Shown here: positions 19,690-61,006 of the stretch, piece after piece
Position numbering within the stretch: position 1 is the first letter of the stretch
Layout: every line of letters begins with the position of its first letter
Source of the DNA: Streptomyces sp. SN-593
Lineage (GTDB): Bacteria; Actinomycetota; Actinomycetes; Streptomycetales; Streptomycetaceae
Reading direction: 5' to 3'
Length of the DNA stretch: 64,000 nucleotides
NCBI RefSeq assembly: GCF_016756395.1
Contig: NZ_AP018365.1
Coordinates: forward strand, 7,134,001 to 7,198,000
Position numbers and translations under genes: made by a program
Notes under the pieces: model-generated
Told to the model about the DNA's origin: nothing
The model's input: only the letters and a program-made list of their open reading frames with translations
Databases searched by the model: none

Positions 19690-19733
19690 GAGCGGCGTCG
19701 GGTCCTTTCGGTCGGTGCGGCGCGGGCGGTGCG

Positions 19734-20417: not shown

Positions 20418-20470
20418 GGTGTTTCCTTCCTCGGGTGCTTCGGTGACGGGACTCCGCCACGCGCTGTCGT

Positions 20471-20505
20471 GGTGCTCGGTGCTCGGTGCTCGGTGCTCGG
20501 TGCTC
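20471..20505. repeat. 7-bp tandem repeat (GGTGCTC x5)
   Basis: Five perfect copies of GGTGCTC occupy the gap between the ligJ-like and ligK-like genes. No gene crosses it. Such a short repeat could vary in number by slippage and alter spacing or mRNA structure ahead of the aldolase gene. Confidence 0.9.
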
Positions 20506-20653
20506 GCTGCCCGGCGGCCGGTGCACGGTGCCCGGCGGCCGCCGGCCGTGCCGGACCGCGTTGCCGTACGCCCCGCCGGCTCCCGCCGCCCCGCGCCGTG
20601 CCGCCCTGCCGGGTCGTGCGCGGGGGGAGGGGGCGCGGCTCAGCCGGCGCGAC

Positions 20654-26720: not shown

Positions 26721-27722
26721 TCAGGGCAGGGCGACCACCATCGCGGCGTGCGTCAGCCCGGCTCCGAAGCCGACGAGCAGGGCGAGGTCGCCGCTGCCGG
26801 CCCGGCCCTGGGCCACCATGCGTTCCATCGCCAGCGGGATGGAGGCGGCCGAGGTGTTGCCGGTGTCCGTCACGTCCCGGGACACCGCCACATGGGGAGG
26901 CAGTCCGAGGGCGGCCACCGCGGCGTCGACGATGCGCAGGTTGGCCTGGTGCGGGATGAACGCGCCCAGTTCCGCGGGGTCGGTCCCTGCCGCGGCGAGC
27001 GCCCGGCGGCAGACCTGCGGGACGGTCCCTATCGCCCACCGGTAGACGCTGGGGCCGTTCATCCGCAGGGTCGGCCAGGCGGCCTGGCCGTCCCGCAGTT
27101 CCAACCACGAACCGGAGTGCGCGATGGCCTCCCGGTGTCCGCCGTCGGACCCCCAGACCACCGGGCCGATCCCCGGGGTGTCGGCGGGCCCGACCACGAC
27201 CGCTCCGGCGCCGTCGCCGAACAGGAACGCGGTCGCCCGGTCCCGCAGGTCGATGATGTCGGTCATCTTCTCCGAGCCGACCACCAGCACCCGCCGGGCG
27301 GCCCCCGTCCTGATCAGCGCGTCGGCCACCGCCAGCGCGTGCACGAAGCCGGCGCAGGCCGCGCTCACGTCCATCGCGCCGGCCGACGAGGCACCCGTCA
27401 GGTGGGCGATCTGCGGCGCGGCGGCGGGGGACTGCTCCAGGTGGGACATGGTCGCCAGCAGGACCATGTCCACCTCCTCGGCGGCCACCCCGGCCTGGGC
27501 GAGCGCCTTGAGCGACGCGGCGACCGCCATGCCGACCACGGTCTCCTCCGCGTCGCCGAAGCGGCGCGAGACGATCCCGGAGTGCCGGCGGATCCACTCG
27601 TCGCTGGAGTCGATCAGCTCCACGAGTTCGTCGTTCGGCACCACCCGGCCGGGCCGGTACGCGCCGACGCCCAGGATGCGCGAGCCGGCGGCCCCGGCGG
27701 CCGTGCCGATCGTGCCCGCCAT
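26721..27722 (-). CDS. 3-oxoacyl-ACP synthase III-like protein (FabH/RevR type)
   Basis: This 333-residue thiolase-fold enzyme has the complete KAS III triad: Cys123 (SAACAGF), His258 (PHQANLR) and Asn289 (GNTSAAS). It condenses an acyl-CoA or acyl-ACP with malonyl-ACP. In the reveromycin pathway the homologue RevR works with a ligase (RevS) and a crotonyl-CoA carboxylase/reductase (RevT) to make 2-alkylmalonyl-CoA. The same three genes, in the order CCR-ligase-KAS III, form this operon, so I infer the same role. ATG 27722 overlaps the stop of the ligase gene (ATGA). A starter-unit function for the PKS is an alternative. Confidence 0.9.
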   Translation of the reverse strand: MAGTIGTAAGAAGSRILGVGAYRPGRVVPNDELVELIDSSDEWIRRHSGIVSRRFGDAEETVVGMAVAASLKALAQAGVAAEEVDMVLLATMSHLEQSPAAAPQIAHLTGASSAGAMDVSAACAGFVHALAVADALIRTGAARRVLVVGSEKMTDIIDLRDRATAFLFGDGAGAVVVGPADTPGIGPVVWGSDGGHREAIAHSGSWLELRDGQAAWPTLRMNGPSVYRWAIGTVPQVCRRALAAAGTDPAELGAFIPHQANLRIVDAAVAALGLPPHVAVSRDVTDTGNTSAASIPLAMERMVAQGRAGSGDLALLVGFGAGLTHAAMVVALP

Positions 27723-29470
27723 CACGCCTCCCGCGCCGGTGCCGGGCCGAACTCGCCGTCCAGGTAGCGGCTGCGGGCCAGCCGGCGCTGCACCTTGCCG
27801 CTGGAGGTCTTCGGCAGCGCCCCGCGGCGCAGCAGCACTATCTCGTCGATCCGCAGCCGCTGCCGGTCCCAGACCGCGTCGTGCACCCGCGCCCGCAGCG
27901 CGTCGGCGCCGCCGTTGCGCAGCGCCCGGCCGTCGGCCTCGACCAGGAGCACCAGCCGCTCGGTCCGCCCGTCGTCCAGGGCGAAGGCCGCGGCGCAGTT
28001 GGGGTGCAGCGCCCGGTCCGACACCTCCGCCGACAGCTCTATGTCCTGCGGGTAGAAGTTGCGGCCCTGGTGGATGACCACGTCCTTCAGGCGGCCGGCG
28101 ACGAAGACCTCGCCGTCGTGCAGGAAGCCCAGGTCGCCGGTCCGCAGCCAGGTGCCGCGCGCCTCCTGCCCGGCGATCCGGGCGCCGAAGGACTCGGCGC
28201 TCTCCGCCGGCCGCCCGTGGTAACCGCGGGCCACGCAGGGGCCGTTGATCCAGATCTCGCCGACCCGGCCGGCCGGCTGCTCCGTGCCGGTGCCGGGGTC
28301 CACGACGGCCACCCGCGAGGAGGGCACGGTCACCCCGGACCCCACCAGCCGCACACCGTCCGTCCCCGGCCCGGTCAGCGGCACCACCCGGCCGTCCTGG
28401 AGCGCGGCGGCGTCGGCGCGCAGCAGGGTGGGCGGGCGGTCCTCCGGGCTGCCGCTGAGCTTCAGGGTGTTCTCGGCCAGGCCGTACCCCGGGCACATCG
28501 CCTGCGGGCGGAAGCCGGCCGGGGCGTACGCCTCGGTGAAGTCCGCCACGGCCGTCCAGCGCACCGGTTCGGCGCCGTTGACCGCCACCCGCCAGGAGGA
28601 CAGGTCCAGCCCGGCGGGCAGGCCGGTGTCGGCGACCGAGCGCACGCACAGCTCGTAGGCGAAGCTGGGCGCGGCGGCGTGGGTGCCGCGGAACCGGGAG
28701 ATCGCCTCCAGCCAGCGCGCCGGCCGCCGGATGAACGACTGCGGGGCCATCAGGTAGGCGGGGACGCCGGTGAACAGCGGCATCACCACGCCGAACATCA
28801 GGCCCATGTCGTGGAAGAGCGGCAGCCAGTTGACCACCGTCCCGTCGGAGCGCACGGGCCACAGCTCCACGGTCTCCGCCACGTTGGCGCGGAAGTTGGC
28901 GTGCGTGACCTCGACGCCCTTGGGGTCCCCGGTGGAGCCCGAGGTGTACTGGAGCAGCGCGACGTCGTCCGGGCCGGGGAGGCGCACGGCCGGGGCGTCG
29001 TCCGGGACGTCCGGCAGCGACTCGGTGTCGATCACCGTCAGCCCGGTCAGCAGGTCGGCGAAGTGCTCCTCCACCTCCCGCTTGACGGCGGTCGTGGTGA
29101 GGATCGTCTTCGCGCCCGCGTCGTCGGCGATGCGGCGCGCGCGCTCCATGCCGCGGCGCCGGGTCGGCACCTGCACGGGCGCGCCCGCGGTCCCGGCGTA
29201 CATGCACCCGAGCAGCGCGGCGACGAACTCCAGGCCGGACGGGTACAGCAGGACGGCGGTGCCGCCGGCCAGCCCCGCCGCCTCCAGCGCGGCCGCCCGG
29301 GCCCGGGCCGCCCGGTCGAGCCGTCCGTAGGTCAGGGTCTCCTCGGGGGTCTCGCCGTCGCGCAGGAAGACGTACGCGACGGTGTCCGGCTGCTGCTCGC
29401 TCCGCAGCCGCAACGCCTCGGGCAGGGTGGGGGCCAACTCGGCCGGCAGGGCGAGTTCCATGGCGGTCAC
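27722..29470 (-). CDS. Acyl-AMP/acyl-CoA ligase (FAAL-like, RevS type)
   Basis: The 582-residue adenylate-forming enzyme shows the AMP-binding core YTSGSTGDPKGV (from Tyr175), PLFHDMGL, GYGLAENTL, the TGDLGF hinge region and a C-terminal lysine in PKTSSGKVQRR. The NWLPLFHDMG and GAEPVR motifs are typical of fatty acyl-AMP ligases, which load ACPs, but RevS-type enzymes make acyl-CoA; the two cannot be told apart here. It would activate a medium-chain fatty acid destined for 2-alkylmalonyl-CoA formation. GTG 29470 is preferred, with GGAGGA ten bases upstream; ATG 29461 is alternative. It lies 28 bases after CCR and overlaps the KAS III-like gene. Confidence 0.9.
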   Translation of the reverse strand: MTAMELALPAELAPTLPEALRLRSEQQPDTVAYVFLRDGETPEETLTYGRLDRAARARAAALEAAGLAGGTAVLLYPSGLEFVAALLGCMYAGTAGAPVQVPTRRRGMERARRIADDAGAKTILTTTAVKREVEEHFADLLTGLTVIDTESLPDVPDDAPAVRLPGPDDVALLQYTSGSTGDPKGVEVTHANFRANVAETVELWPVRSDGTVVNWLPLFHDMGLMFGVVMPLFTGVPAYLMAPQSFIRRPARWLEAISRFRGTHAAAPSFAYELCVRSVADTGLPAGLDLSSWRVAVNGAEPVRWTAVADFTEAYAPAGFRPQAMCPGYGLAENTLKLSGSPEDRPPTLLRADAAALQDGRVVPLTGPGTDGVRLVGSGVTVPSSRVAVVDPGTGTEQPAGRVGEIWINGPCVARGYHGRPAESAESFGARIAGQEARGTWLRTGDLGFLHDGEVFVAGRLKDVVIHQGRNFYPQDIELSAEVSDRALHPNCAAAFALDDGRTERLVLLVEADGRALRNGGADALRARVHDAVWDRQRLRIDEIVLLRRGALPKTSSGKVQRRLARSRYLDGEFGPAPAREA

Positions 29471-29498
29471 GTGGGCTAACTCCTCCTGATGGGCCCGG

Positions 29499-30830
29499 TT
29501 ACACGGACCGGAGCGGGTTGAGCTTCTGCTCACCCAGCCGGGCGCGTAGCTGGGGGTCGGTGACGCCGAGTCCCTCCTCGGGTGCCATGCACAGCACGCC
29601 GACCTTGCCGGTGTGCGCGTTCGTCTGCACCAGCCGGGTCGCCTCGCCGGCCTCGGCGAGCGGGTACACCGCGGACAGGACCGGGGAGAGCTTGCCGAGC
29701 TTGCTCAGCCGCATCGTCTCGGTCGCCTCGCTGAGGTTCATCCCGTGGCTGCCGATGATGCGCTTGAGGTTCATCCACAGGTAGCGGTTGTCGTAGTTGT
29801 GCTCGAAGCCGGAGCTCGACCCGCAGGTGACGACGGCGCCGCCGCGGCGGACCACGATGACCGACATGCCGAAGGTGGCCTTGCCGATGTAGTCGAAGAC
29901 GATGTGCGGGTCCTCGCCCACCTCCTGGCGGATCGCGCGGCCCAGCCGCTTGGCGAGTTTCACCGTCGCCGGCCCGGGCTCCGGCTGCGTGCCGATGCCG
30001 ATCTCCTGGCGGTTGATCACGACGTCGCAGCCGAGCTTGCGGGCGATCTCCGCCTTGCGCTCCGAGCTGACCACGCCGATCGGAACGCCGCCGCCGTTCT
30101 TGACCATCTGGACGGCGAACGAGCCGAGCCCGCCGGTCGCGCCCCAGATCAGCACGATGTCGCCCTGCTTCATCCGGGCGCCGTGCTCGCCGATCAGCAT
30201 CCGGTAGGAGGTGCCGCCGCACAGCGGGATGCAGGCGGCCTCCTCCCAGCTCAGGTGGGCGGGCTTGGGCATGAGCTGGGCGGAGCGGACCACCGAGTAG
30301 TGCGCCAGGCCGCCGAAGTTGGTCTCGTAGCCCCACGCCCACATGTCGGAGAGCAGGCTGTCGTTGTGGGTGCGGGGGTCCTCGGTGTCCGCCACCACGG
30401 GGGAGACGGAGACCCGGTCGCCCACCTTCCAGCGGCGCACCCCGGAGCCGGTCCGCACGATGACGCCGGACGCGTCCGAGCCGAGCACGTGGTACGGCTG
30501 GTCGTGCCGCGCGTCCCAACCGCCGCCGCGGCCCAGCCGCTTCAGCGCGTCGAAGGTCGAGATGGGCTCGAACATCGCCGACCACACGGTGTTGTAGTTG
30601 ATGGAGCTGGCCATCACGGCCACCAGCACCTCGTCGGGCGCCAGTTCCGGCATCGGCACCCGGCCCACCCGCACCGACTTGCGCACGTCCTTGCTGGCGC
30701 TGTCCATGCCGATGAACGCGTCGGCGTCCTCGGCCCGCAGATGCGCGGCGACGAAGTCCTCGGGGACCGGAATTCGGCTCAACTCGTCCGGGTCGGCGCC
30801 CCGGAGCACTGCCTCGGTCATGGGTTCCAT
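29499..30830 (-). CDS. ccr: Crotonyl-CoA carboxylase/reductase (alkylmalonyl-CoA supply, RevT type)
   Basis: The 443-residue MDR-fold enzyme has the typical CCR features: VMASSINYNTVWSA near residue 72, SDASGVIVRTG, the WGYETNFGG segment, the NADPH-binding ATGGLGSFAVQ, and FEHNYDNRYLWMNLKRIIGSH near residue 350. CCRs reductively carboxylate 2-enoyl-CoA to ethylmalonyl-CoA or longer alkylmalonyl-CoA. With the coupled ligase and KAS III-like genes it should supply the branch-bearing extender unit for the PKS, whose first AT domain has an atypical motif. ATG 30830 has GGTGAGG just upstream. It is transcribed away from the PKS genes across a 630-base shared control region. Confidence 0.95.
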   Translation of the reverse strand: MEPMTEAVLRGADPDELSRIPVPEDFVAAHLRAEDADAFIGMDSASKDVRKSVRVGRVPMPELAPDEVLVAVMASSINYNTVWSAMFEPISTFDALKRLGRGGGWDARHDQPYHVLGSDASGVIVRTGSGVRRWKVGDRVSVSPVVADTEDPRTHNDSLLSDMWAWGYETNFGGLAHYSVVRSAQLMPKPAHLSWEEAACIPLCGGTSYRMLIGEHGARMKQGDIVLIWGATGGLGSFAVQMVKNGGGVPIGVVSSERKAEIARKLGCDVVINRQEIGIGTQPEPGPATVKLAKRLGRAIRQEVGEDPHIVFDYIGKATFGMSVIVVRRGGAVVTCGSSSGFEHNYDNRYLWMNLKRIIGSHGMNLSEATETMRLSKLGKLSPVLSAVYPLAEAGEATRLVQTNAHTGKVGVLCMAPEEGLGVTDPQLRARLGEQKLNPLRSV

Positions 30831-31463
30831 GTAGCCTCACCTCGGGCCGGACGAAATTCCTGACATGCAGGATGACGAGGACGAAGCTACGGGAGTACGT
30901 TTGCGATAGACACCCCTAACCTTCGGCCCCGCGCACGGCGCGGTGAGCGCCACCGGCATTGCGGTGCCGCCTTTTCCCGGGGTTCGGCGCCGATAGCGGC
31001 CCGGTGTCGCGGTGCCTACTGTTCAGTACGGCGTAACCGATCATCCCGTGCCCGGGTCTTCGGCCGGAACCCCTAACTCCGTGCCCGAGGTTCACCCCTA
31101 GTCCGGGATTCACCCCTAGCGGGACCCGACCCCCCGCGACCTGCTTCCGTGCAGCTCAGGCGGCATATCAGAGCCGCGTCCAACCCCCTTCGCGGGACCC
31201 CGCGCAGCGGCCCGGGCGGTCCTTGGCGGTGCGGCTGCCCGGGGTGGGAAAGCGGCCCCGCGAGGGCCCCGACAACGACCGCACATTACTAGGGGCCGAT
31301 AGGGGGACCGGGGCGGTTGGGGGCTTGGGTAGCCTACCTGGAAACGGGGTGCTGCGTACGCCTGGCAATTGAGATCGATGACGGGTTCTTCGAAGATCTC
31401 CAGTTCTCTTGATATGCCGACCTTGTATCGGACGTCGACCAGCTCGGGGCCGTGGGAGCGATA
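30831..31463. promoter_or_regulatory. Divergent control region of the extender-unit operon and PKS genes
   Basis: The 633-base gap contains no credible gene. The heptamer CCCCTAA/G occurs at 30913-30919, 31070-31076, 31095-31101 and 31113-31119, and inverted (CTAGGGG) at 31289-31295. Two of the copies sit in an 11-bp direct repeat, TTCACCCCTAG. This arrangement between the two main biosynthetic operons marks it as the target of a pathway activator, the SARP upstream or a regulator outside the window. Confidence 0.6.
31091..31119 (+). repeat. TTCACCCCTAG direct repeat, 18-bp period
   Basis: TTCACCCCTAG is present exactly at 31091-31101 and 31109-31119; a third, partial copy AACCCCTAA precedes it at 31068-31076. 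Short direct repeats spaced by about two helical turns or less are typical activator sites of antibiotic clusters. Confidence 0.7.
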
Positions 31464-34400
31464 GTGAGTGACGACAAGTCCTTCGAGTATCTGAAGAAAG
31501 TGACTTCGGAGCTCAAGCGTACCCGGAACCGACTCTCGGAAATCGAGTCGAAATCCAGGGAGCCGCTCGCCGTCGTCGGGATGGCGTGCCGCTTCCCCGG
31601 CGGGGTCGCCGGCCCCGACGACCTGTGGCACCTGGTCGCCTCGGGCACCGACGCGGTGTCGCTCTTCCCCGCCGACCGCGGCTGGGACGTCGAGCAGCTC
31701 TACGACCCCACCGGCGACCGCCCCCACACCTCGCTCACCCGCGAGGGCGGATTCCTGGCCGCCGCCGCCGACTTCGACGCCGGGTTCTTCGGGATCTCCC
31801 CGCGCGAGGCGCAGGCGATGGACCCGCAGCAGCGGCTGCTGCTGGAGGTGTCGTGGGAGGCGCTGGAGCACGCCGGCATCGACCCGCGCACCCTCGCCGG
31901 CACCTCCACCGGCGTGTTCACCGGCCTGATGTACCACGACTACCCGGCCTCCGACCAACCGGACGCCGCCGAGGGCACCGGCTCGGCCGGCCTCGGCGCC
32001 AACGGCGCCGTCGCCTCCGGCCGGGTCTCCTACGTGCTGGGCCTGGAGGGCCCGGCCATCACCGTGGACACCGCCTGCTCCTCGTCGCTGGTCGCCATGC
32101 ACTGGGCCGGGCAGGCGCTGCGCTCGGGCGAGTGCTCGCTCGCCCTGGCCGGCGGCGTGACCGTGATGGCGACCCCCAGCACGTACGTGGAGTTCAGCCG
32201 CCAGGGCGGCGCCGTGTCACCCGACGGCCGCTGCCGGGCGTTCTCCGAGGCGGCCGACGGCACCGGGTTCAGCGAGGGCGTCGGCATCCTCGTGCTGGAG
32301 CGGTTGTCGGACGCGCGGCGCAACGGGCACGAGGTGCTGGCCGTGGTCCGGTCGAGTGCGGTGAACCAGGACGGCGCGTCCAACGGCCTGACGGCGCCGA
32401 ACGGTCCGTCGCAGCAGCGCGTGATCCGCCAGGCGCTGGCGTCGGCCGGACTGTCGCCGGCCGACGTGGACGCCGTGGAGGCGCACGGCACGGGCACGAC
32501 CCTGGGCGACCCGATCGAGGCGCAGGCGCTGCTGTCCACCTACGGCCAGGGCCGCCCCGACGACCAGCCGCTGTGGCTCGGCTCGATCAAGTCCAACATC
32601 GGCCACACCCAGGCCGCCGCCGGCGTCGCCGGCGTCATCAAGATGGTGCAGGCGATGCGGCACGGCGTGCTGCCCCCCACCCTGCACGCCGACCTGCCCA
32701 GCTCGCACGTCGACTGGACGGCCGGCCAGGTCCGGCTGCTCACCGAGCCGCAGCCCTGGCCCGACGCCGGCCGCCCGCGCCGGGCCGGCGTGTCCTCCTT
32801 CGGCGTGTCCGGCACCAACGCGCACGTCATCATCGAAGCCGCCCCCGAGACCGAGGCCGAACCCCCCGCCGCGGACCGGCCCGGCGACGAGGACCCCGGA
32901 CTGTTCGCCCCGCACACCGCGATGGCGTGGACCCTGTCCGCACGCAGCGCCAAGGCACTGGCCGGCCAGGCGGGACGCCTGCTGGAGCGTGTGCAGGACG
33001 CCCCGGAACTCGACCCCGCCGACGTGGGCTGGTCGCTGCTGCGCTCCCGCGCGCTGTTCGAGCACCGCGCCGTCGTCGTCGGCGCCGACCGGGCCGAGCT
33101 GACGGCCGGCCTGGCCGCGCTCGCCGCGGGCGAACCCGCCGCGAACGTCGTCACCGGCGCCGCCCGCTCCGGCGGCCGGGCCGTCTTCGTCTTCCCCGGC
33201 CAGGGCTCGCACTGGGAGGGCATGGCCAAGGAACTCCTCGCCACCTCACCGGTCTTCGCCGCGAAGGTCCAGGAGTGCGCCGAGGCGCTCGACCCGCTCG
33301 TCGACTGGTCGCTGCTGGAAGTGCTGCGCCACCCCGAGGAGTCCGCGGAGCTGCTGAGCCGCATCGACGTCTACCACCCGGTCTTCTTCACCATGATGGT
33401 GGCGCTGGCCGAGGTCTGGCGCGCCCTGGGCGTCGAGCCCGCGGCCGTCGTCGGGCACTCCCAGGGCGAGGTCGCCGCCGCCCACGTGGCCGGCGCGCTG
33501 TCCCTCAGCGACGCCTACCGCGTGGTCCTGGTGCGCGGCAACATCTTCGAGAACGTGCTGCTCGGCAAGGGCGCCATCGCCTCGGTCAAGCTGGGCCAGG
33601 AAGCGGTCGAGGAACAGATCGCCGGGTACGAACGGCTCTCCGTCGCCGGCGTCAACTCCCGCTCCGGGGTGACCGTCTCCGGCAGCATGGAGGACGTCAA
33701 GGCGTACCTCGCCGAGTGCGAGGCCGCCGGCGTCCCCGCCCGCATCCTCGGCATGGCCGCCTCCCACTCGCCCGCCCTGGAACCGCTGCGCGAGCGGCTG
33801 CTCGGCGAGCTGTCCTTCGTCCGCCCCCGGGCCGGCACCATCCCCATGTACTCCACCGTCGACGCCGCCCTGGTCGACACCGCCACCCTGGACGCCGAGT
33901 ACTGGTACCGCAACCTGCGCTCACCGGTGCTGTTCGAGCAGACCACGCGCGTCCTGGTCGACGCCGGCTTCAGCGCCTTCGTCGAGGCCAGCTCGCACCC
34001 GGTGCTGACCGTGCCGCTCCAGGAGACCCTCGACACCTTCTACCCCGACCTCGCGGCCGACGCGGCGGTCACCGGGACGCTGCGCCGCAACGAGGGCGGC
34101 CCGGCCCGGATGCTGGCGTCCGCGGCCCACCTGTTCGCGCACGGCGTGCCGGTCGTCTGGGACGGCCTGTTCGCGGGCCGCCCGCCGCGCCGGGTCGAGC
34201 TGCCCACCTACGCCTTCCAGCACCGGCGGTTCTGGAACGCGCTCCCGGAGCCCGCGGCCGGCCGCGACCCGCTGGACACCCTGTTCTGGGAGTCCGTCGA
34301 GGGCGGACGGCTGGCCCAGTCCCTGGGTGTGGACGACGCGGTCGTCTCCGAGGTCGTGCCGGCCCTGCTGAGCTGGCGCGAGCGCCGGCAGCGGGAGGCG

Positions 34401-37400
34401 GCCGCCGACGACTGGACCTACCGCCAGTCCTGGGTGCCGGTCGACGGACTGCGGCAGGGCCCGCCCGCCGGCCGCTGGCTGGCCGTCGCGGACCGCGCCG
34501 ACGACCCCTGGACCACCGGCGTCGCCGAGGCCCTCGGCCCCGACACGACCGTCCTCGCCCGGGCCGACGCGACCGCCGAACGGCTCGCCGCCCCCGGCTA
34601 CGACGGCGTCGTCTGGCTGCCGCCCGCCGGTGCGGACGGCCCGGCGGCGACCCTCGCCCTGGTCCAGGCGCTGCGCGCGTCCGGGCAGGGCGCGCCGCTG
34701 TGGGTGCTCACCCGGGCCGCGGTGTCCGCCCGGCCCGGCGAACCCGTCAGCGGCATGTGGCAGGGCGGCATCTGGGGCCTCGGCCGCGTCGCCGCCCTGG
34801 AACTGCCGGACCTGTGGGGCGGGTTGGTCGACCTGCCCGAGGAGTTCGACGCCGCCGTCGCGGCCCGCCTGGGCGGCGCGCTGTCCACCGCCCACGGCGA
34901 GGACCAGCTCGCGGTCCGCGCCTCGGGCGTCGTGGCCCGCCGCCTCGTGCGCGCCGCCGTCCACGGCACCGGCGAGCCCTGGCACACCGGCGGGACCGCC
35001 CTGGTCACCGGCGGCACCGGCGGCCTCGGGGCGCACGTCGCCCGCTGGCTGGCGGAGCGCGGCGCCGAGCACCTGGTGCTGCTGTCGCGCCGCGGCCCGG
35101 ACGCCCCGGGCGCGGCCGAACTGCGGGCCGAACTGGAACAGGCCGGCGCGCGTGTCAGCGTGCACGCCTGCGACGTGGCCGACCGCGAGGCCATGACCGC
35201 GATCGTCACCGGTCTGCCGGACGACCTGCCGCTGCGCACGGTGGTGCACGCCGCCGGCGTCGGCAGCGCACTCGTGCCGGTCGAGTCCCTGGACGCCGGC
35301 CAGTTGGAGTTCGAGCTGCGGGTCAAGGCCGAGGGCGCCCTGCTGCTGGACGAGTTGACCGAGGGCATGGACCTGGACGCGTTCGTGCTGTTCTCGTCGG
35401 GGGCGGCGTCCTGGGGCGGCAGCGGGCAGGGCGGTTACGCGGCGGGCAACGCCTGCCTGGACAGCCTGGCCGAGTACCGCCGGGCGCGGGGGCGTACCGC
35501 CACCTCCCTCGCCTGGGGCGGCTGGGCCGGCCCTGGCCTGACCGACATCGACGCCACCTTCGTGGACTACCTGCGGCGCATGGGCGTGCTCGCCATGCAG
35601 CCCGACCTCGCCGTCGCGGCCATGCAACGCGTCCTGGAACAGGACGAGACCACCGTCACCGTCTCCGACATGGACTGGACGAAGTTCGTCCCCGCGTTCA
35701 CCCTGGCCCGCCCCAGCCGCCTGTTCGCCCTGCTCCCCGAAGCGGCCCCGGCCGCCGCCGAGCCGGCCGACGACGACGGCGGCGACTTCGCCGCCCGGGT
35801 GGCCGCCATGTCCGCGGCCGAGCGGCGCGCCTACCTGACCACCCTGGTCCGCGACCACGCCGCCGCCGTCCTCGGGCACGGCGGCGGCGACGAGATCGAC
35901 CCCGGCCAGGCGTTCCGCGAGGTCGGCTTCGACTCGCTGACGGCGGTGGAACTGCGCAACCGGCTCCAGACCGCGACCGGCACCGGCCTGCCCGCCACCC
36001 TGGTCTTCGACTACCCGAGTGCGGCCCGGCTGGCCGGTTACCTCGCCGAGCGGTTCGGCGACGGCGCGGCGGCGCAACCGGACCTGCCCGCGCTGGTGCA
36101 GGCCACCGACGACCCGATCGCCGTGGTCGGCATGGCCTGCCGCTACCCCGGCGGGGTGACCGGCCCCGACGAGCTGTGGAACCTGGTCGCCACCGGCACG
36201 GACGCGATGAGCACCTTCCCGGACGACCGCGGCTGGGACCTGGAGGCGCTGTACGACCCGGCGGGCTACCGGCCGGGCGCGTCGGTCACCCGCGAGGGCG
36301 GCTTCGTGGACTCCGCGGTGGAGTTCGACGCGGGGTTCTTCGGGATCTCCCCGCGTGAGGCGCTGGCGATGGACCCGCAGCAGCGGCTGCTGCTGGAGGT
36401 GGCCTGGGAGTCGCTGGAGCACGCCGGCATCGATCCGGCGGGGCTCGCCGGGACGGCCACCGGCGTCTTCGTCGGCGCCGCGTCGTCCGGCTACCTGGAG
36501 GCCATCGACGGCCTGCCCGAGACCGAGAGCCACCGGATGACCAGCGGGCTGCTGTCCGTCATCTCCGGCCGGCTCTCCTACAGCCTGGGCCTGGAGGGCC
36601 CGGCGGTGACGGTGGACACCGCGTGCTCGTCGTCGCTGGTGGCCATGCACTGGGCCGGCCAGGCGCTGCGCTCGGGCGAGTGCTCGCTCGCCATCGCCGG
36701 CGGCGTGAACGTGCTCGTCAGCCCGGTCGGGTTCACCGAGTTCAGCAAGCAGGGCGGCCTCGCCGCCGACGGCCGCGTCAAGGCGTTCGCCGAGGCCGCC
36801 GACGGGACCAGTTGGTCCGAGGGCGCCGGCGTCGTGGTGCTGGAGCGGTTGTCGGACGCGCGCCGCAACGGGCACGAGGTGCTGGCCGTGGTCCGGTCGA
36901 GTGCGGTGAACCAGGACGGCGCGTCGAACGGGTTGACGGCGCCGAACGGTCCGTCGCAGCAGCGGGTGATCCGCCAGGCGCTGGCGGCGGCCTCCCTGGC
37001 ACCGTCCGACGTGGACGTGGTGGAGGCGCACGGCACGGGCACGACACTGGGCGACCCGATCGAGGCGCAGGCGCTGCTGGCGACCTACGGCCAGGGCCGC
37101 CCCGAGGACCGGCCGTTGTGGCTGGGCACGATCAAGTCCAACATCGGCCACTCGCAGGCCGCCGCCGGTGCGGCCGGCGTCATCAAGATGGTGCAGGCCA
37201 TCCGCCACGGCTCGCTGCCGCCCACCCTCAACGTGGACGAGCCGAGCACGAACGTGGACTGGAGCGAGGGCCGGGTGCGGCTGCTGACCGAGGAGCAGCC
37301 GTGGCCGGAGACCGGCCGCCCGCGCCGCGCGGGCGTGTCCTCCTTCGGCGTGTCCGGCACCAACGCGCACGTCATCATCGAGGCCGCGCCCGAGGTTGAG

Positions 37401-40400
37401 GTCGAGGCCGCCGCCGAGGACACGGACACGGACCCGGGCCCGGGAACGGGCGCGGAGGCGGGCCCCGGGACTGCCGCGGGAACGGGCGAGCACCCGGACG
37501 GCGGGAACGCCGGGCACCCGCGGGGCGCCGCACTCGGCACGGACGACACCGTGTGGGTCGTCTCCGGGCGCTCGGCGGACGCCGTGGCCGGCCAGGCGGA
37601 ACGGCTGCTGGAGCGCGTCGAGCAGGACACGGGTCCGGACCCCGTGGACGTGGCCCACTCGCTGCTGACGTCCCGTTCCCTCTTCGAGCACCGTGCGGTG
37701 GTGGTGGGTGCGGATCGCTCGGAACTCGTCTCCGGGTTGCGGGCGTTGGCGGCCGGTGAGGCGGCGGGGAACGCGGTGGAGGGTGTGGCGCGGAGCGGCC
37801 GCCGGGTGGCGGTGTTGTTCACCGGTCAGGGTGCGCAGCGGCTGGGGATGGGGCGGGAGTTGTATGAAGAGTCGCCGGTGTTCGCGGCGGCCTTCGACGA
37901 GGTGGTGGCGGAGTTGGACCGGCATCTTGAGGTGCCGTTGCGGGAGGTGGTGTGGGGTGAGGACGCCGACGCGTTGAACTCCACCGGTTGGGCGCAGCCG
38001 GCGTTGTTCGCGGTCGAGGTGGCGTTGTTCCGGCTGTTGGAGTCGTTCGGGGTGAGGCCGGATTACCTGTTGGGGCACTCCATTGGTGAGGTGGCTGCGG
38101 CTTACGTTGCCGGGGTTTTCGATCTGGTGGATGCGTGCCGGTTGGTGGGGGCGCGGGCGCGTTTGATGCAGGCGCTTCCCTCGGGTGGGGCGATGGTGGC
38201 CATCGCCGCTTCCGAGGACGACGTGCTGCCGCATCTGTCCGACGGGGTGTCGGTGGCGGCGGTGAACGCGCCGGGTTCGGTGGTGGTCTCCGGTGAGGAG
38301 TCCGCTGTGCTCGCGGTCGGTGAGCATTTCAAGGCGGTGGGGGTGAAGACGACCCGGCTGCGCGTCTCGCACGCCTTCCACTCGGTCCTGATGGAGCCGA
38401 TGCTGGACGACTTCCTGGCCGCGATCGCGGATGTGTCGTTCTCCGAGCCTCGGATCCCGGTGGTGTCGAACCTGACGGGTGAGCCGGCGGACATGACGTC
38501 GCCGAAGTACTGGGCACAGCAGGTGCGTTCGGCGGTCCGCTTCGCGGACGGACTGGCATGGCTGACGGCGCAGGGCGTGGACGCCTTCGTCGAGGCGGGA
38601 CCGGACGCGGTGCTGGCCGGACTGGTGGAGTCCGACGGCGCCACCGCGGTGGCCGTGCAGCGCCGCGACCGCACCGGGGCCCGGACCGTCCTCCAGGCGC
38701 TGGCACGGTTGTTCGCGGAGGGCGTGCCGGTCGACTGGGACGGCCTGTTCGCGGGCCGCCCGCCGCGCCGGGTCGAGCTGCCCACGTACGCCTTCCAGCG
38801 GCGCCGTTACTGGCCGGAGGGCGGCACGGCCGCCGCCGACGTGGCGGCCGCCGGCCTGATGGCGGTCGAACACCCGCTGCTGGGCGCGGTGGTGCCGTCG
38901 CCCGAGGGCGGCGGGGTGGTGTTCACCTCGCGGCTGTCGGTCGCGTCGCAGCCGTGGCTGGCCGACCACGCCGTGCAGGGTGTGGTGCTCTTCCCGGGCA
39001 CCGGTTTCGTGGAACTCGCGGTGCACGCCGCGGACGCGGTCGGCTGCGGCCGGGTCCGCGAGGTGATCGTGGAGGCGCCGCTGGTGCTGCCGGAGCGCGG
39101 CGGCGTGCAGGTCCAGGTGGTCGTCGGCGAACCCGAGGACGGCCGGCGCCCGTTCACGGTGTACGCGCGCCCCGACACGGGCGGCGAGCAGCCCTGGGTC
39201 CGGCAGGCCAGCGGTGCCGTGGACGACGCGGCCGGGGCCGACGCGGCCGGGTTCGAGGCGCTGGCCGGCGTGTGGCCCCCGGCGGGCGCGGACGTGCTGG
39301 AGACCGACGGGATCTACGAGCGGATCGCCGAGCAGGGCTTCGTGTACGGCCCCTCGTTCCGCGGCCTGGCCCGCGCCTGGCGCCGCGACGGGCAGGTCTT
39401 CGCCGAAGTGGCGCTGCCCGAGGCGCAGTCGGGCCGGGCGGGCGCTTTCGGCCTGCACCCGGCGCTGCTGGACGCGGTGATGCACGCGCTGGCCTTCGTG
39501 GACCTGGAGCCGGCGGAGTTCGGCCGGCTGCCGTTCAGCTTCGGCGACGTGGCGCTGCACGCCTCCGGCGCGGGGCGGGTGCGCGCCTGCCTGACGCGGA
39601 CCGGACCCGACTCGGTGGCGATCGCCGTGGCCGACGAGGCCGGTGACGCGGTGCTGTCGCTGGGCTCGCTGGTGGTACGCCCGCTGACCCCGCAGGCGCT
39701 GAGCGCCGCGGGCGGCGGCCGGGACGAGGCCGTCCTGGCCCCGCGGTGGACTGCGCTGGACACGCAGGACCCGGCGCTGGACGACTGGGAGAGCGTGGCC
39801 GCCGCAGTCGTGGCGGGGCCCGGCCAGCGCGTGGACTGGCTGCCGGGCGCGGTGCTGCACCCGCACGCCGGGGACGTGGTGTCGGACGCGGCACTGCCGC
39901 TGGTGATCGCCGTGACCGGTGGCGACCGCCCGGTCGAGGGGGCCCACGAGGCCACCCGGTGGATGCTGGACCAGCTCCAGACCTGGCAGTCCGGGGCCCG
40001 GGAGCTCGTCGTGGTGACCTCGGGCGCGGTGGCCGCCGGCCCCGACGAGTCGGTCACCGACCTGGGCGCCGCCGCGGTATGGGGCCTGGTGCGTTCGGCG
40101 CAGGCGGAGAACCCCGGCCGGATCACCCTGGTCGACACCGACGCCGCCACCGGCATGACGGCCGGCCTGCTGGCCGCCGCGCGCGCCACCGGGGAGCCGC
40201 AACTCGCGGTACGGGCGGGCCGGTTGCACGCGGCGCGGTTGGCGCGTGCGGATGTCGGGCTGGTGGCGCCGGAGTCGGGTGCCTGGCACCTGGACTCCAT
40301 GGCGAAGGGGACGTTGGAGAACCTGCGGTTGGTGCCGTTCCCGGAGGCGGAGCGGGCGTTGTCCGACGGTGAGGTGCGGATCGAGGTGCGGGCGGCGGGG

Positions 40401-43400
40401 TTGAACTTCCGCGACGTCCTCAACGCCCTGGGCATGTACCCGGGCGAGGCGGGCCCGTTGGGCGGCGAGGTGGCCGGCGTGGTGACCGAGGTCGGCGCGG
40501 GCGTGTCCGACCTGCGGGTCGGCGACCGCGTCATGGGCCTGAGCGACGGCGGTCTCGGCTCCGTCACCGTGACCGACCGGCGGCTGGTCGCGCCGATCCC
40601 GTCGGGCTGGTCGTACACGACGGCCGCGTCGGTGCCGACGGTCTTCCTGACCGCGTACTACGGACTGGTGGACCTGGCCGGGGTGCGGTCGGGCGAGCGG
40701 GTGCTGGTGCACGCGGGCGCCGGCGGCGTCGGCATGGCCGCGCTGCAACTCGTCGCGCACCTGGGCGCCGAGGCGTACACGACCGCGAGCGAGGGCAAGT
40801 GGCCGGCGCTGCGGGAGCGGGGGGTGGAGGCGGCGCGTCTGGCGTCGTCGCGGACGCTGGACTTCGAGGAGGCGTTCCTGCGGGAGACCGGGGGGCGCGG
40901 GGTGGACGTGGTGCTGAACTCCCTGACGGGGGAGTTCATCGACGCGTCGCTGCGGTTGATGCCGGGTGGCGGCCGCTTCGTCGAGATGGGCAAGGCCGAC
41001 CTCCGCACCGACGAGCAGATCGGCGCCGTGCACCCGGGCATCAGCTACCACACCTACGACCTGGTGCAGGCCGGGCCCGACCGGGTCCAGCAGATGTTGC
41101 TGGAGTTGGTGGGGTTGTTCGAGTCGGGTGTGTTGGTGCCGTTGCCGGTGGTGGAGTGGGATGTGCGGCGGGCGCCGGAGGCGTTCCGGTTCATGAGTCA
41201 GGCGCGGCATGTGGGCAAGATCGTGTTGACGGTGGGTCGGCGGGTGGTGGGTGAGGGGGCGGTTCTGGTCACTGGGGGGACTGGTGGTCTGGGGGGTGTG
41301 GTGGCGAGGCATCTGGTGGTGGAGCACGGGGTGCGGGATCTGGTGTTGGTGTCGCGTCGGGGGTTGGGGGCGCCGGGTGCGGAGGAGTTGGTGGCGGAGC
41401 TTTCGGGTCGGGGTGCTCGGGTGGAGGTGGTGGCGTGTGATGTGAGTGATCGTGAGGCGTTGGCGGGGGTGGTGGCGGGGATGTGTGCGTCGGGTGTGTT
41501 GGCGGGTGTGGTGCATACGGCGGGTGTGGTGGATGACGGGTTGGTGTCGTCGTTGTCGGGGGAGCGGTTGGGTCCGGTGTTGGCGCCGAAGGTGGATGCG
41601 GGGTGGTGGCTGCATGAGTTGACGCGGGGGTTGGATCTGTCGTTGTTCGCGGTGTTCTCGTCGATGTCGGGTCTGGTGGGGGCTCCGGGGCAGGGCAACT
41701 ACGCGGCGGCGAACGTGTTCCTGGACGCGTTGGTGGAGCGGCGTCGGAGTGAGGGGCTGCCGGGCGTGTCGATGGTCTGGGGTCCGTGGACCCCCGAGGT
41801 CGGCCTCACCGGCGCCCTGTCCGAGGCCGATCTCCGCCGGCTGCACAGCTCCGGTACGCCGCCGTTGTCGGTGGAGCAGGGCATGCGGCTGTTCGACCAG
41901 GCCGTGCTCGCGGACGCGCCCGTCCTCGCGCTCACCCGCCTCGACGCCGCCGTGCTGCGCGGCCAGGCCGACCTGCCCGTGATGCTCCGGGAACTGGTCG
42001 GGGCCAGGCCGCGGCGGGCCGCGGCCGGCGCACGGCAGCAGTCCGGGGGCCTCGCGGGGCAGTTGGCCGGGCTCAGTGCCCAGCAGCGCGACCAGCACCT
42101 GCTGGCCCTGGTCCGCGACAACGTCGCGGTCGTCCTCGGCCACGGCGGCGGTCAGGACGTCGATCCCGGCCAGGCGTTCCGGGAGGCGGGCTTCGACTCG
42201 CTGACGGCCGTGGAACTGCGCAACCGCCTCCAGAGCGCGACCGGCCTCGCACTGCCGGCCACGCTCGTCTTCGACTACCCCAACGCGACCCGGCTCGCCG
42301 CCTTCCTCGCCGAGCAGTTCGGCGACGCCGCCGAGCCCGCCGCCCGGCCGGACCTGCCCGCGCTGGTCTCGGTGACCGACGACCCGATCGTCGTCGTGGG
42401 CATGGCCTGCCGCTTCCCCGGCGGTGTGACCGGCCCCGACGACCTGTGGGACCTGGTCGCCTCCGGCACGGACGCGATGTCCCCCTTCCCGGCGGACCGC
42501 GGCTGGGACCTGGACGGCCTCCACGACCCGACGGGCACCCGCCCGAACACGTCCGTGGCCGACGAGGGCGGGTTCCTGGCCTCCGCCGCCGACTTCGACG
42601 CCGGGTTCTTCGGGATCTCCCCGCGCGAGGCGCTGGCGATGGACCCGCAGCAGCGCATGGTCCTCGAAGTGGCCTGGGAGGCGCTGGAGCACGCGGGCAT
42701 CGACCCGACCGGACTCGGCGGCACCCCGGCCGGCGTCTTCGTCGGCAGCTACCACTCCGGCTACAGCGACCTCGTCGTGGAGTCCGGCGGCGACGCGCAG
42801 GCCCAACTGCTCACCGGCGCCGCGCAGAGCGTGCTGTCCGGGCGGGTCTCCTACGTCCTCGGGCTGGAGGGCCCGGCGGTGACGGTGGACACCGCGTGCT
42901 CGTCGTCGCTCGTCGCGATGCACCTGGCGAGCCAGTCGCTGCGCTCGGGCGAGAGCACGCTCGCGCTGGCGGGCGGCGTGACCGTGATGGCCACCCCCGG
43001 GACGTTCGTGGAGTTCAGCCGGCAGGGCGGGCTCGCGGCCGACGGGCGCTGCAAGGCGTTCGCCGAGTCCGCCGACGGCACCGGCTGGTCCGAGGGCGCG
43101 GGCATCGTGGTGCTGGAGCGGTTGTCGGACGCGGAGCGGAACGGGCATCGGGTGCTGGCGGTCATGCGCTCCAGCGCGGTGAACCAGGACGGTGCGTCGA
43201 ACGGGTTGACGGCGCCGAACGGTCCGTCGCAGCAGCGGGTGATCCGCCAGGCGCTGGCCGCCGCGGGGCTCTCACCGGCCGACGTGGACGCCGTGGAGGC
43301 GCACGGCACCGGCACCTCGCTGGGCGACCCGATCGAGGCACAGGCGGTGCTGGCCGCCTACGGACAGGACCGCCCCGAGGACCGGCCGCTCTGGCTCGGC

Positions 43401-46400
43401 TCGGTCAAGTCCAACCTGGGCCACACGCAGGCGGCGGCCGGTGTCGTGGGCGCCATCAAGATGGTGCAGGCGCTGCGTCACGGGGTGCTGCCCCGGACCC
43501 TGCACGTGGACGAGCCGAGCACGCACGTGGACTGGGGCCAGGGCCGGGTGCGGTTGCTGACGGAGTCGGTGCCGTGGCCGGAGAACGGGCACCCGCGGCG
43601 GGCGGGTGTCTCCTCGTTCGGGATCTCGGGGACGAACGCGCACGTGATCTTGGAGGCGGCTCCCGCGGTGGAGTCCGAGGTCGAGGCGCGGGTCGAGGTC
43701 GCGGGAGAGGCTGGGGCCGAGTCCGAGTCCGGGTCGGGGTCGGTGTGGGTGGTGTCGGGTCGTTCGGAGGGGGCGTTGCGGGCGCAGGCGGAGCGGTTGT
43801 TGTCTGTGGCCGAGGGGCTGGATCCGGTGGATGTGGGTGGGGCGTTGTTGTCGCGGTCGGTGTTCGAGCACCGTGCGGTGGTGGTGGGCAGTGGGCGTGA
43901 GGAACTGACGGCGGGGTTGCGGGCGTTGGCGGCCGGTGAGGTGGCGGGCAACGCGGTGGAGGGTGTGGCGCGGAGCGGCCGCCGGGTGGCGGTGTTGTTC
44001 GCGGGTCAGGGTGCGCAGCGGCTGGGAATGGGCCGCCGGCTGCACGAGGAGTCGCCGGTGTTCGCGGCGGCCTTCGACGAGGTGGTGGCGGAGTTGGACC
44101 GGCACCTCGAGGCGCCGTTGCGGGAGGTGCTGTGGGGCGAGGACGCCGAGGCGTTGAACTCCACCGGTTGGGCGCAGCCGGCGTTGTTCGCCGTGGAAGT
44201 GGCGCTGTTCCGGCTGCTCGAATCCTTCGGCGTCACACCGGATTACCTGCTGGGGCACTCCATCGGTGAGGTGGCCGCGGCTTACGTCGCCGGGGTGTTC
44301 GATCTGGTGGATGCGTGCCGGTTGGTGGCCGCGCGGGCCCGTTTGATGCAGCAGCTTCCCTCGGGTGGGGCGATGGTGGCCATCGCCGCTTCCGAGGACG
44401 ACGTGCTGCCGCTCTTGTCGGACGGGGTCTCTGTCGCGGCGGTGAACGCGCCGGGTTCGGTGGTGGTCTCCGGTGAGGAGGGCGCTGTGCTCGCGGTCGG
44501 TGAGCATTTCAAGGCGTTGGGGGTGAAGACGACCCGGCTGCGGGTGTCGCACGCCTTCCATTCGGCGTTGATGGAGCCGATGGTGGACGACTTCCTGGCG
44601 GCGATCGCGGAGGTGTCGTTCTCCGAGCCGCGGATCCCGGTGGTGTCGAATCTGACGGGTGAGCCGGCGGACATGACGTCGCCGAAGTACTGGGCGCAGC
44701 AGGTGCGTTCGGCGGTCCGCTTCGCGGACGGACTGGCGTGGCTGACCGCGCAGGGTGTGGACGTGTTCGTGGATGCGGGTCCTGATGGTGTGGTGGCGGG
44801 TCTGGCGCAGGCGAACGCGTCGGATGCGGTGGCGGTGGCGTTGATGCGCAAGGACCGTGGGGGTCTGGACACGGCGTTGCTGGCCGCTGGTGACCTGTTC
44901 GTGCACGGGGTGCCGGTGGAGTGGGCGGGTCTGGTCGGTGGGCGGGGGGCGGAGTGGGTCGAGCTGCCGACGTACGCCTTCCAGCGCCGCCGCTACTGGC
45001 CCGACGCGGCTGTTCCGACGACGGGTCAGGAGCCGGGCCGCGACCCGCTGGACGCGCTGTTCTGGGAATCCGTCGAGCACGGGCGGCTGGCCGAGTCGCT
45101 GGGTGTCGACGACGCCGCGGTCTCGGGCGTCGTGCCCGCCCTGCTGGACTGGCGCGAGCGGCGCCGCCGCGAGATGGCGGCCGACGACTGGCGCTACGAC
45201 CAGCGCTGGGTCCCGGTCGACGGTGTCCCGCGCGGCGCCACGGCGGACCGCCGGCTGGTGGTCGTGCCCGCCGGGGCGGACGCCTGGACCCGCGGAGTCG
45301 TGGACGCGCTGGGCGACGGCGTGACCGTCCTGGAGGCCGAGGCGGCGGACGCGGACCGGCTGGCCGCCGAGGGCGCGGAGTGCACCGCCGTGGTGTGGCT
45401 GCCGCCCGCCGAGGAGTCCGGGGTCGCGGCGACGCTGCGCCTGGTCCAGGAACTGCGCGGGGCCGGGGTGCCGGCTCCCCTGTGGGTGGTCACCCGCGGC
45501 GCGGTCGCCGCCCGGCCGGACGACCGGGTCGACGGCGTCTGGCACGGCGGTGTCTGGGGCCTCGGCCGTGTCGCGGCCCTCGAACTGCCCGACCTGTGGG
45601 GCGGGTTGGTGGACCTGCCCGAGGAGGTGGACGGGACGGTGGCAGCCCGGCTGTCGGGCGTGCTGTCCGGCGGCCACGGCGAGGACCAGCTCGCCGTCCG
45701 TGCCTCGGGCGTCCTCGCCCGCCGACTGGTCCACGCGACCGGCCGGGACGGCGCCGCGGAGCCGTGGCGTACCGGCGGGACGGCGATCGTCACCGGCGGG
45801 ACCGGCGGTCTGGGCGGCCGCGTGGCCCGCTGGCTGGTGGACCGCGGCGCCGAGCACCTGGTGCTGCTCTCGCGCCGGGGCGCCGACGCCCCCGGGACCG
45901 CGGACCTCACGGCGGGGCTCGAAGCCGCGGGCGCCCGGGTCACGGTGGTCGCCGGCGACGTGGCCGACCGGGCGGTGCTGGCCGAGGCGTTCGCCGCGGT
46001 GCCGGCGGACCTGCCGCTGCGGACGGTGGTGCACGCCGCGGGCGTGGGCAACGCGTTCACGCCGTTGGAGTCCATGACGCCCGAGCGGCTCGCGGACGAG
46101 CTGCGGGTCAAGGCCGGCGGCGCGCTGCTGCTGGACGAGTTGACCGAGGGCATGGACCTGGACGCGTTCGTGCTGTTCTCGTCGGGTGCGGCGTCCTGGG
46201 GCGGCAGCGGGCAGGGCGGTTACGCGGCGGGCAACGCCTGCCTGGACAGCCTGGCCGAGTACCGGCGGGCCCGGGGCCGTACCGCCACGTCGGTGGCCTG
46301 GGGCACCTGGGCCGAGGTCGGGATGGCCGCGGGCAGTTCCGACGGCCACGACCACCTGGCGCGCCTGGGCGTCTCCGCCATGGCGCCCGACCTCGCGATC

Positions 46401-47084
46401 ATCGCTCTGCAACGGGTGATCGAGGACGACGCGGCCACGGCCACCGTCTCCGCCATGGACTGGTCCACCTTCGCCCCGGCGTTCACCCTGGCGCGCCCCA
46501 GCAACCTCTTCGCCCTGCTTCCCGAGGCCGTCCCGGCGGCCCCGGACGCGGCCGAGGCGGACACCGGGTTCGCTCAGCACCTCGCGGCGCTGCCGGACGA
46601 GGAGCGGCGCGAGGAACTGCTCGCCCTGGTCCGGGAGCACACCGCGGCCGTGCTCGGCCACGACAGCGCCAGGGACGTCGATCCCGCCCAGGCGTTCCGC
46701 GACGCCGGGTTCGACTCGCTCACCGCGGTCGAGCTGCGCAACCGGTTGCAGCGGCGTACCGGGCTCGCGCTCCCCGCGACGCTCGTCTTCGACCACCCGA
46801 ACCCGAACCGGCTCGTCGACCACCTGGCCGGGGAACTGGTCGGCGGCGGGGACGCGGCGGGCGGACTGGACGAGCTGAGGGACCGGTTGCAGACGTTCGC
46901 CGCCGACCCGGCGGTCCGCGAGGACCTGGAGGCGATGCTGCGCCAGGTGCTCGGCGCCGTCGAGGACGCGACCGCCGCGCAGCGCGGCGACATCGACGCC
47001 GCCTCCGACGAGGAGCTGTTCTCCATGGTCGACCAGGGGAGCAGTTGGATGTCCGATTCTTCGTCGACCGCCGACCACGAGTGA
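31464..47084 (+). CDS. Type I modular polyketide synthase, three extension modules
   Basis: This 5,206-residue protein starts at GTG 31464, with GGGAG five bases upstream. Residues 1-32 form a Lys/Arg-rich coiled coil of the N-terminal docking type, so it should receive its chain from another, unseen PKS rather than start synthesis. Three modules follow: KS-AT-KR-ACP (about 33-1525), KS-AT-DH-ER-KR-ACP (1551-3613) and KS-AT-KR-ACP (3641-5125). All KS cysteines and HGTGT/NxGH histidines, KR tyrosines and ACP serines are present, so every domain looks active. The end (about 5132-5206) has the [11 protein letters not shown] pattern of a C-terminal docking domain that would meet the N-terminal coiled coil of the next PKS, 27 bases downstream. 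No loading domain or thioesterase. Confidence 0.97.
31560..36060 (+). other. PKS module 1: KS-AT(unusual)-KR-ACP
   Basis: KS about residues 33-460 with active Cys205 (DTACSSS). AT about 574-925 with Ser666 in GHSQG, but the specificity loop reads MAASH (Ala765 where methylmalonyl ATs have Tyr of YASH), and the helix after GHSQG reads [13 protein letters not shown] instead of the usual RS-x-A pattern. I infer a larger alkylmalonyl unit from the CCR operon. KR about 1178-1354 with Tyr1325; it lacks the LDD motif and has Trp in GAASWGG, so it is A-type (L-hydroxyl). ACP Ser1491 in GFDSL. Predicted result: alpha-alkyl, beta-hydroxy unit. Confidence 0.85.
40235..40441 (+). repeat. 207-bp exact repeat, copy 1 (DH-ER junction, module 2)
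   Basis: Identical base for base to 51404-51610 in module 4. It codes for the linker into ER and the ER N-terminus (to ALGMYP). The flanks on both sides diverge at once. Confidence 0.9.
41093..41775 (+). repeat. 683-bp exact repeat, copy 1 (ER end and KR, module 2)
   Basis: I find no difference between this stretch and 52262-52944 in module 4. It encodes the last part of ER and nearly the whole KR. It uses TTG for Leu and GTG/GGT/GCG codons far more than the surrounding PKS, which prefers CTG/CTC and GTC/GGC. Confidence 0.9.
42372..46840 (+). other. PKS module 3: KS-AT(malonyl)-KR-ACP
   Basis: KS about 3641-4069, Cys3812. AT about 4175-4510, Ser4266 in GHSIG and HAFH from 4363, a malonyl pattern and nearly identical to the AT of module 2 over most of its length. 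KR from about 4773, Tyr4920, no LDD, Trp in GAASWGG: A-type. ACP Ser5085. Predicted product: beta-hydroxy acetate unit. Confidence 0.92.
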
Positions 47085-60924: not shown

Positions 60925-61006
60925 GTGGCGCCCGGTGCCCCTTTCCCGGCACCGGGCGGCCACCCCACAGGTAGTGACATGCAGTGAGAAACGGAGTGGA
61001 CGACTC

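Follow-up and report, generated by a model that had tools for sequence, protein, structure and literature searches.

The acyltransferase (AT) domain considered here belongs to a large polyketide synthase of Streptomyces sp. SN-593, and the question raised by its locus is which extender unit this AT selects and where in the product the resulting branch is placed. The window, that is, the whole stretch of 64,000 nucleotides that was analysed, covers positions 7134001-7198000 of the largest contig of a genome of 8,972,903 bases in three contigs, and the domain is complete (351 residues within an open reading frame of 5210 residues). Our reading of the sequence, to which we give a probability of about 0.97, is that this is the AT of RevB extension module 4, which would select 2-alkylmalonyl-CoAs supplied by RevR, RevS and RevT and set the branch at C18 (the features are collected in Table 1).

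For Streptomyces sp. SN-593, primers and DNA fragments of the rev locus are in print (PMC7311520), and 10 of the 10 rev stretches taken from the available text of that paper, with added tails removed, match exactly, nine of them at one place and one at two. At 7,784 bp, the amplicon for the revU knockout agrees with the printed length. The other amplicon in print, of 4,249 bp, stems from a disrupted allele, and the 3,770 bp of the present sequence therefore do not bear on the match (PMC7311520). The genes revR, revS and revT are all present, in one row that is divergent from RevB. The P450 gene at the end of the window is presumably revI, where we take PDB 3wvs to be P450revI. Production of reveromycin by SN-593 has been published (PMC5187497; PMC7311520), and within the reveromycin cluster the domain is the first of the ATs of RevB; the side chain, the supply pathway and the module number have all been published.

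Table 1. Features of the rev locus and of the related locus in Streptantibioticus ferralitis, in window coordinates unless another record is given
Feature	Position	Strand	Basis or remark
SARP-type regulator	25371-26216	-	match below cutoff
revR, FabH-type beta-ketoacyl-ACP synthase III	26721..27722	-	PRK09352 366 bits (cutoff 249); TIGR00747 330 bits (cutoff 292)
revS, fatty acyl ligase, FAAL-like by sequence	27722..29533	-	family models, PDB match
revT, CinF-like enoyl-CoA carboxylase/reductase (CCR)	29499..30830	-	TIGR01751 527 bits (cutoff 379)
RevB, modules 4-6: KS-AT-KR-ACP; KS-AT-DH-ER-KR-ACP; KS-AT-KR-ACP	31452..47084	+	start probably GTG 31464
AT domain, first module of RevB (extension module 4)	33183..34235	+	motifs, domain order
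LSM-equivalent RIDVYHP	33360..33380	+	His where EryAT6-type RVDVVQP has Gln
GHSQG	33453..33467	+	catalytic Ser codon 33459-33461
18-residue segment from conserved Arg (Ser+25)	33534..33587	+	GxGA-type, as in VASH-loop ATs
Specificity loop ILGMAASH	33744..33767	+	one residue short against the YASH/VASH ATs compared
RevC, modules 7-8: KS-AT-DH-ER-KR-ACP; KS-AT-KR-ACP	47112..58286	+	motifs, Pfam
Zinc alcohol dehydrogenase frame	about 58318-59404	+	by eye, no NCBIfam match
Aldehyde dehydrogenase	59473-60924	+	match below cutoff
SDR family oxidoreductase, candidate RevG	60935..61828	+	TIGR03971 330 bits (cutoff 300); assignment inferred
Flavin monooxygenase-like protein	61898-63421	-	match below cutoff
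P450	63464..64000, on past the window to 64657	-	397/397 identical to PDB 3wvs
RevA, KSQ loading module and three extension modules	70938-89819, downstream, outside the window		
RevD, four extension modules and thioesterase-like end	89896-110988, outside the window		thioesterase-like end by eye
S. ferralitis revR remnant	NZ_JARHTQ010000057.1:13216-26455 (L010), 3963-4430		

The original prediction placed this AT in module 1, which is wrong, as RevA, which carries the KSQ loading module together with modules 1-3, is encoded downstream of it. The module 1 reading is ruled out by RevB itself, which opens with an N-terminal docking stretch, and by the KSQ loading module and three modules found 12 kb past RevC. 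Read by the general rules on which docking types pair, the head and tail stretches of the synthases suggest the order RevA - RevB - RevC - RevD, and on this order the first AT of RevB would be that of extension module 4. Domains were called with Pfam on nine of the 12 modules and from motifs alone in M2, M3 and M12; the calls of an M10 without DH and an M11 without KR, made from motifs alone, were overturned by Pfam, which places DH and KR in M10 and KR in M11. Counted from the acid end, the domain order predicts a 2,3-ene, 4-methyl, 5-OH, 6,8-diene with 8-methyl, 11-OH and 12-methyl, followed by 15-OH, an alkyl group at 18, 19-OH and a 20,22-diene with 22-methyl, which we take to be the reveromycin skeleton. 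The predicted double bonds, methyls and hydroxyls match reveromycin, and it is the module 4 AT that is predicted to set C18. The KSQ-propionate start and module 1 (DH-KR) predict three extra carbons (C25-C27) against the C24 acid that we assume as the end of reveromycin, which implies that the end of the chain is trimmed or oxidised. Some of the carbon numbers used here are given for reveromycin and spirofungin in the available text of PMC6245485.

Within the domain, the GHSQG serine, the MAASH loop and the retained carboxylate-binding Arg of the original prediction can all be read in the sequence, with the Arg at Ser+25 and the AASH of the loop beginning at 33756, and the earlier numbering of Ser666 and Ala765 is consistent with a GTG start four codons inside the ORF. 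The methylmalonyl-type YASH loop and RVDVVQP large-subunit motif (LSM) are absent from this AT, which has ILGMAASH and RIDVYHP instead, and so is the malonyl-type HAFH loop, where MAASH is found. As had been claimed, the loop is neither YASH nor HAFH, and among the 13 ATs in this assembly line that is true of the RevB module 4 AT alone. The statement that Ala765 replaces the Tyr holds insofar as the Tyr is absent, but not as a plain Tyr-to-Ala swap, since the loop is also shorter by a residue. The stretch that starts at the conserved Gly and ends at the catalytic His has 29 residues in 101 of 109 aligned ATs, 30 in six and 28 in two, and the 28-residue loop is found among these 109 only in the RevB module 4 AT and its 79% identical relative from S. 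ferralitis. HMMER and MAFFT place the gap in the loop at neighbouring positions, so that either the Asp or the Tyr of PVDYASH may be called missing.

The helix after the active site (GKGAIASV) had been regarded as an altered one peculiar to this AT, a view that was not borne out, as the GxGA helix is common to VASH-type ATs, for example that of salinomycin module 14. The GxGA type was found in 10 of the 205 unique ATs of a survey (233 AT matches, 25 of them dropped at under 300 columns; two of the unique ATs had no readable helix), and eight of these 10 carry a VASH or AASH loop, against one of the 193 remaining ATs with a readable helix lacking the GxGA type. The surveyed loci include the rev cluster and that of S. 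ferralitis and were gathered by similarity to the module 4 AT, not as random or independent ones, and the Fisher p of 6e-12 for helix against loop overstates independence, since the rows are related and similarity-picked. The helix spacing of 12 residues, seen in nine of nine VASH/AASH rows, occurs also in 42 of 73 YASH rows, and an inserted helix residue as a special feature was ruled out because the same spacing is frequent in YASH ATs. The module 4 AT has the GxGA helix that is a trait of VASH-type ATs and does not have their 29-residue Gly-to-His loop ending in VASH, its own 28 residues ending in AASH.

The small-subunit motif of EryAT6 has been described as extending from Thr739 to His747, YASH included, and its LSM VDVVQP as Arg611-Pro617, where a Q616H change increases promiscuity (PMC8044089). 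VASH has been named the ethylmalonyl motif, and a CPTH-to-VASH change left the activity of its AT unaltered (PMC6090053); the isobutyl-type AT4 of divergolide carries VASH, and smaller residues in the motif at the YASH position are said to be typical of exotic extenders (PMC6490886). An AGH motif proposed for hexylmalonyl-CoA in the available text of PMC10888640 is absent from the RevB module 4 AT. Because the CPTH-to-VASH change was without effect, VASH occurs in an isobutyl-type AT and AGH is absent here, these loop motifs are taken as hints and not as proof. A literature search for MAASH in connection with reveromycin gave no match.

The original prediction of a bulky 2-alkylmalonyl-CoA extender, supplied by the divergent CCR operon and leaving one unusual alkyl branch in the product, agrees with published work. 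In the available text of PMC5187497, the C-18 side chains differ among reveromycins A, C, D and E and derive from various unusual extenders of module 4 (n-butyl-, isobutyl-, n-pentyl- and n-hexylmalonyl-CoA), and revR, revS and revT, all in place here, are implicated in extender supply, with deletion of revT abolishing production and deletion of revR suppressing reveromycin A relative to the others. The text available from PMC6273641 has isopentyl- where PMC5187497 has isobutyl-, and the RevB AT is already part of its alignment of bulky-extender ATs, placed in the legend under butyl-, isopentyl-, pentyl- and hexylmalonyl-CoA and named RevA in the discussion. The best PDB match of RevT is 4a0s, an octenoyl-CoA enzyme, at 638 bits, where crotonyl-CoA enzymes reach at most 473, and at the equivalents of 4a0s positions 163 and 362 RevT has Ala and Gly, against Ile and Phe in the crotonyl enzymes. 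We take 4a0s to be CinF and presume that A163 and G362 play a role in it; a literature search for the two together gave no match. RevS has been described as a medium-chain acyl-CoA ligase (PMC5187497), whereas at family level it scores best with models of fatty acyl-AMP ligases, without reaching their cutoffs, and its alignment with 7r7g, the best PDB match, spans almost the full length and has no large gap.

In the mechanism that we propose, RevS would activate medium-chain fatty acids and RevT would reductively carboxylate 2-enoyl-CoAs to give 2-alkylmalonyl-CoAs, with the FabH-type RevR favouring the n-butyl unit, possibly by making its short precursor. In the AT, the Ser would attack the bound extender and the Arg at Ser+25 would hold its carboxylate, and the shortened, Tyr-free loop together with the VASH-type helix may leave space for C4-C6 side chains, the short loop being the putative cause of this tolerance of the pocket. 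The AT would load the module 4 ACP, and the KS would join the unit to the triene chain received from RevA, leading to the alkyl branch at C18. An AT reported for C4-C6 and branched extenders with a loop that is shorter, and not just Tyr-free, could serve as a template for AT engineering.

The nearness of this AT to the rev-line YASH ATs in the whole-domain tree, and the grouping of its C-terminal part with the same ATs (support 92), would fit an AT for methylmalonyl-CoA whose loop has degenerated, in which case the bulky branch would arise elsewhere. Such an AT is nevertheless highly improbable, as the module 4 assignment and the C-18 variation are published (PMC5187497), the loop is shortened, the LSM has His for Gln, the helix is of the VASH type, and the other 12 of the 13 ATs of the line have canonical YASH or HAFH loops. 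Still less credence can be given to an ordinary VASH-type AT for ethylmalonyl-CoA, against which stand a loop that falls short of the compared VASH ATs by one residue and a neighbouring CCR that is CinF-like and not crotonyl-type. The GxGA helix and the general similarity to the AT of salinomycin module 14, which we assume to be specific for ethylmalonyl-CoA, do speak for it. So does the designation of VASH as the ethylmalonyl motif (PMC6090053), although the reveromycin extenders run from butyl to hexyl, with none ethyl in the available text of PMC5187497. The preferred reading is that of a RevB module 4 AT for bulky 2-alkylmalonyl-CoAs.

For this bulky-extender AT, clustering with methylmalonyl ATs had been named as a point that would speak against it, and the whole-domain tree gives an unresolved fork beside the rev-line YASH ATs, with a published product whose side chains are nonetheless bulky; whole-domain clustering with methylmalonyl ATs is a poor refutation test. 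Mean whole-domain identity is 0.553 to six rev-line YASH ATs and 0.520 to six VASH ATs, and in a sliding comparison residues 106-150 and 181-210 are nearer to the VASH ATs and residues 286-345 nearer to the rev-line YASH ATs. In trees of 51 rows, the core (residues 91-210) places the module 4 AT with the VASH ATs at a support of 96, the rival placement being kept at a p-AU of 0.09, the C-terminal part is placed with the rev YASH ATs at a support of 92 (the rival likewise not rejected by the AU test, p 0.06), and the N-terminal part does not resolve and leans slightly to the rev line. On the set of 109 rows, no clade of the core tree is starred apart from the pair that includes the module 4 AT, with the VASH rows still nearest by path, and when the helix and loop columns are removed both groupings fit. 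Only two HAFH ATs were included in the trees, and removal of near-copies among the YASH rows reduced 130 rows to 107; for the 51-row trees every third global YASH row was kept and global rows with unclassified ('other') loops were dropped.

A mosaic AT is possible on these comparisons, and convergence in the pocket is no less so. A fuller account would be that the core (about 91-210) came from a VASH-type AT and was later shortened by one loop residue, admitting C4-C6 units, that the C-terminal part was homogenised with the ATs of the line, and that S. ferralitis, with its revR remnant, is a reveromycin producer shifted off the n-butyl congener; the weak tree results make this combined account rather doubtful. 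As a separate observation, three YASH ATs, those of modules 2, 9 and 11 (L002:16973, L003:7621, L003:18055), are near-identical, with end branches of 0.008-0.028 in the tree, and look as if recently homogenised.

The second cluster, in S. ferralitis JCM 14344, has counterparts of the AT (79%), RevT (84%) and RevS (81%), with the P450 (84%) and the SDR (83%) on other contigs. In this one draft assembly, what is left of revR is two fragments (82% and 85% identical in DNA) that lie directly against each other; about 650 inner bases are gone and the stretch contains no N. A full-length FabH paralogue at 55% is present elsewhere in the genome. The loss of revR predicts few n-butyl congeners unless the FabH paralogue substitutes, and a reveromycin-type cluster in a second genus with a broken revR therefore offers a testable prediction on congeners. 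No match was obtained in a literature search for ferralitis in connection with reveromycin.

Among the other genes of the locus, RevG has been described as the enzyme that forms the spiroacetal ketone by oxidising a hydroxyl group (PMC6490886), and the step of the candidate SDR may depend on mycofactocin, as TIGR03971 is the mycofactocin-coupled SDR family. Amidohydrolase and LigK-type aldolase genes are seen at 18781-21679 and 4533-5393, with look-alike starts near 4533 and in the flanking locus L001, which suggests that a pathway for aromatic catabolism is present in two sets upstream of the rev cluster. Elsewhere on the largest contig, about 244 kb near one end (8460989-8705048) is dense in AT domains and a second AT-rich block is found at 7354269-7420031, with 83 AT matches genome-wide. 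The small contigs, compared over 6 kb each with a plasmid collection from which records of this genome may be excluded, matched one record each, covering 5% and 8%.

Close relatives of the AT are few: at E <= 1e-110 they were found in one of 35 genomes of the genus (its own), and at E <= 1e-111 in two of 394 genomes of the family (its own and one other, with five candidates scored per genome), and on named genome contigs the best 80 of 466 relatives gave 71 loci, with one at 79% and the others at 55% or less. The nearest known system is RevB of the reveromycin cluster of Streptomyces sp. SN-593 (AP018365), which is alike in the 10 DNA stretches, in the P450 compared with 3wvs and in revR-revS-revT beside revB, and no difference from it was found in the published stretches and P450 compared. 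In a fold search with an AlphaFold2 model of the AT (mean pLDDT 91.6), the salinomycin module 14 AT (6iyt) comes first by E-value, followed by those of modules 8 and 9, and the leading structures scarcely differ in fold score (TM-score by query between 0.87 and 0.91 over the first 14 rows). The closest solved structures by sequence are salinomycin ATs as well, again module 14 first, with the module 8 AT, which has a YASH loop, almost equally close (331 against 337 bits). The salinomycin ATs of modules 14 (6iyt) and 9 (7vt1/7vrs) are like that of RevB in their GxGA helix, their Tyr-free xASH loop and an identity of about 50%, but differ in a loop that is one residue longer (STVASH against GMAASH) and in the LSM (RIEILQP against RIDVYHP). 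On the side of supply, CinF (4a0s) is the closest solved relative of RevT and has the same Ala and Gly at the two equivalent positions, whereas RevT, judging from the congeners, would also have to serve shorter and branched chains, 4a0s being named for octenoyl-CoA. Thailandin AT13 (butylmalonyl-CoA) and cinnabaramide AT1 (hexylmalonyl-CoA) resemble the RevB AT in taking a bulky extender with the YASH Tyr replaced, as described in the available text of PMC8044089, but ThaAT13 has an AAGH loop with an extra residue where RevB has one fewer, and the loop of CinAT1 bears an Arg (PMC8044089).
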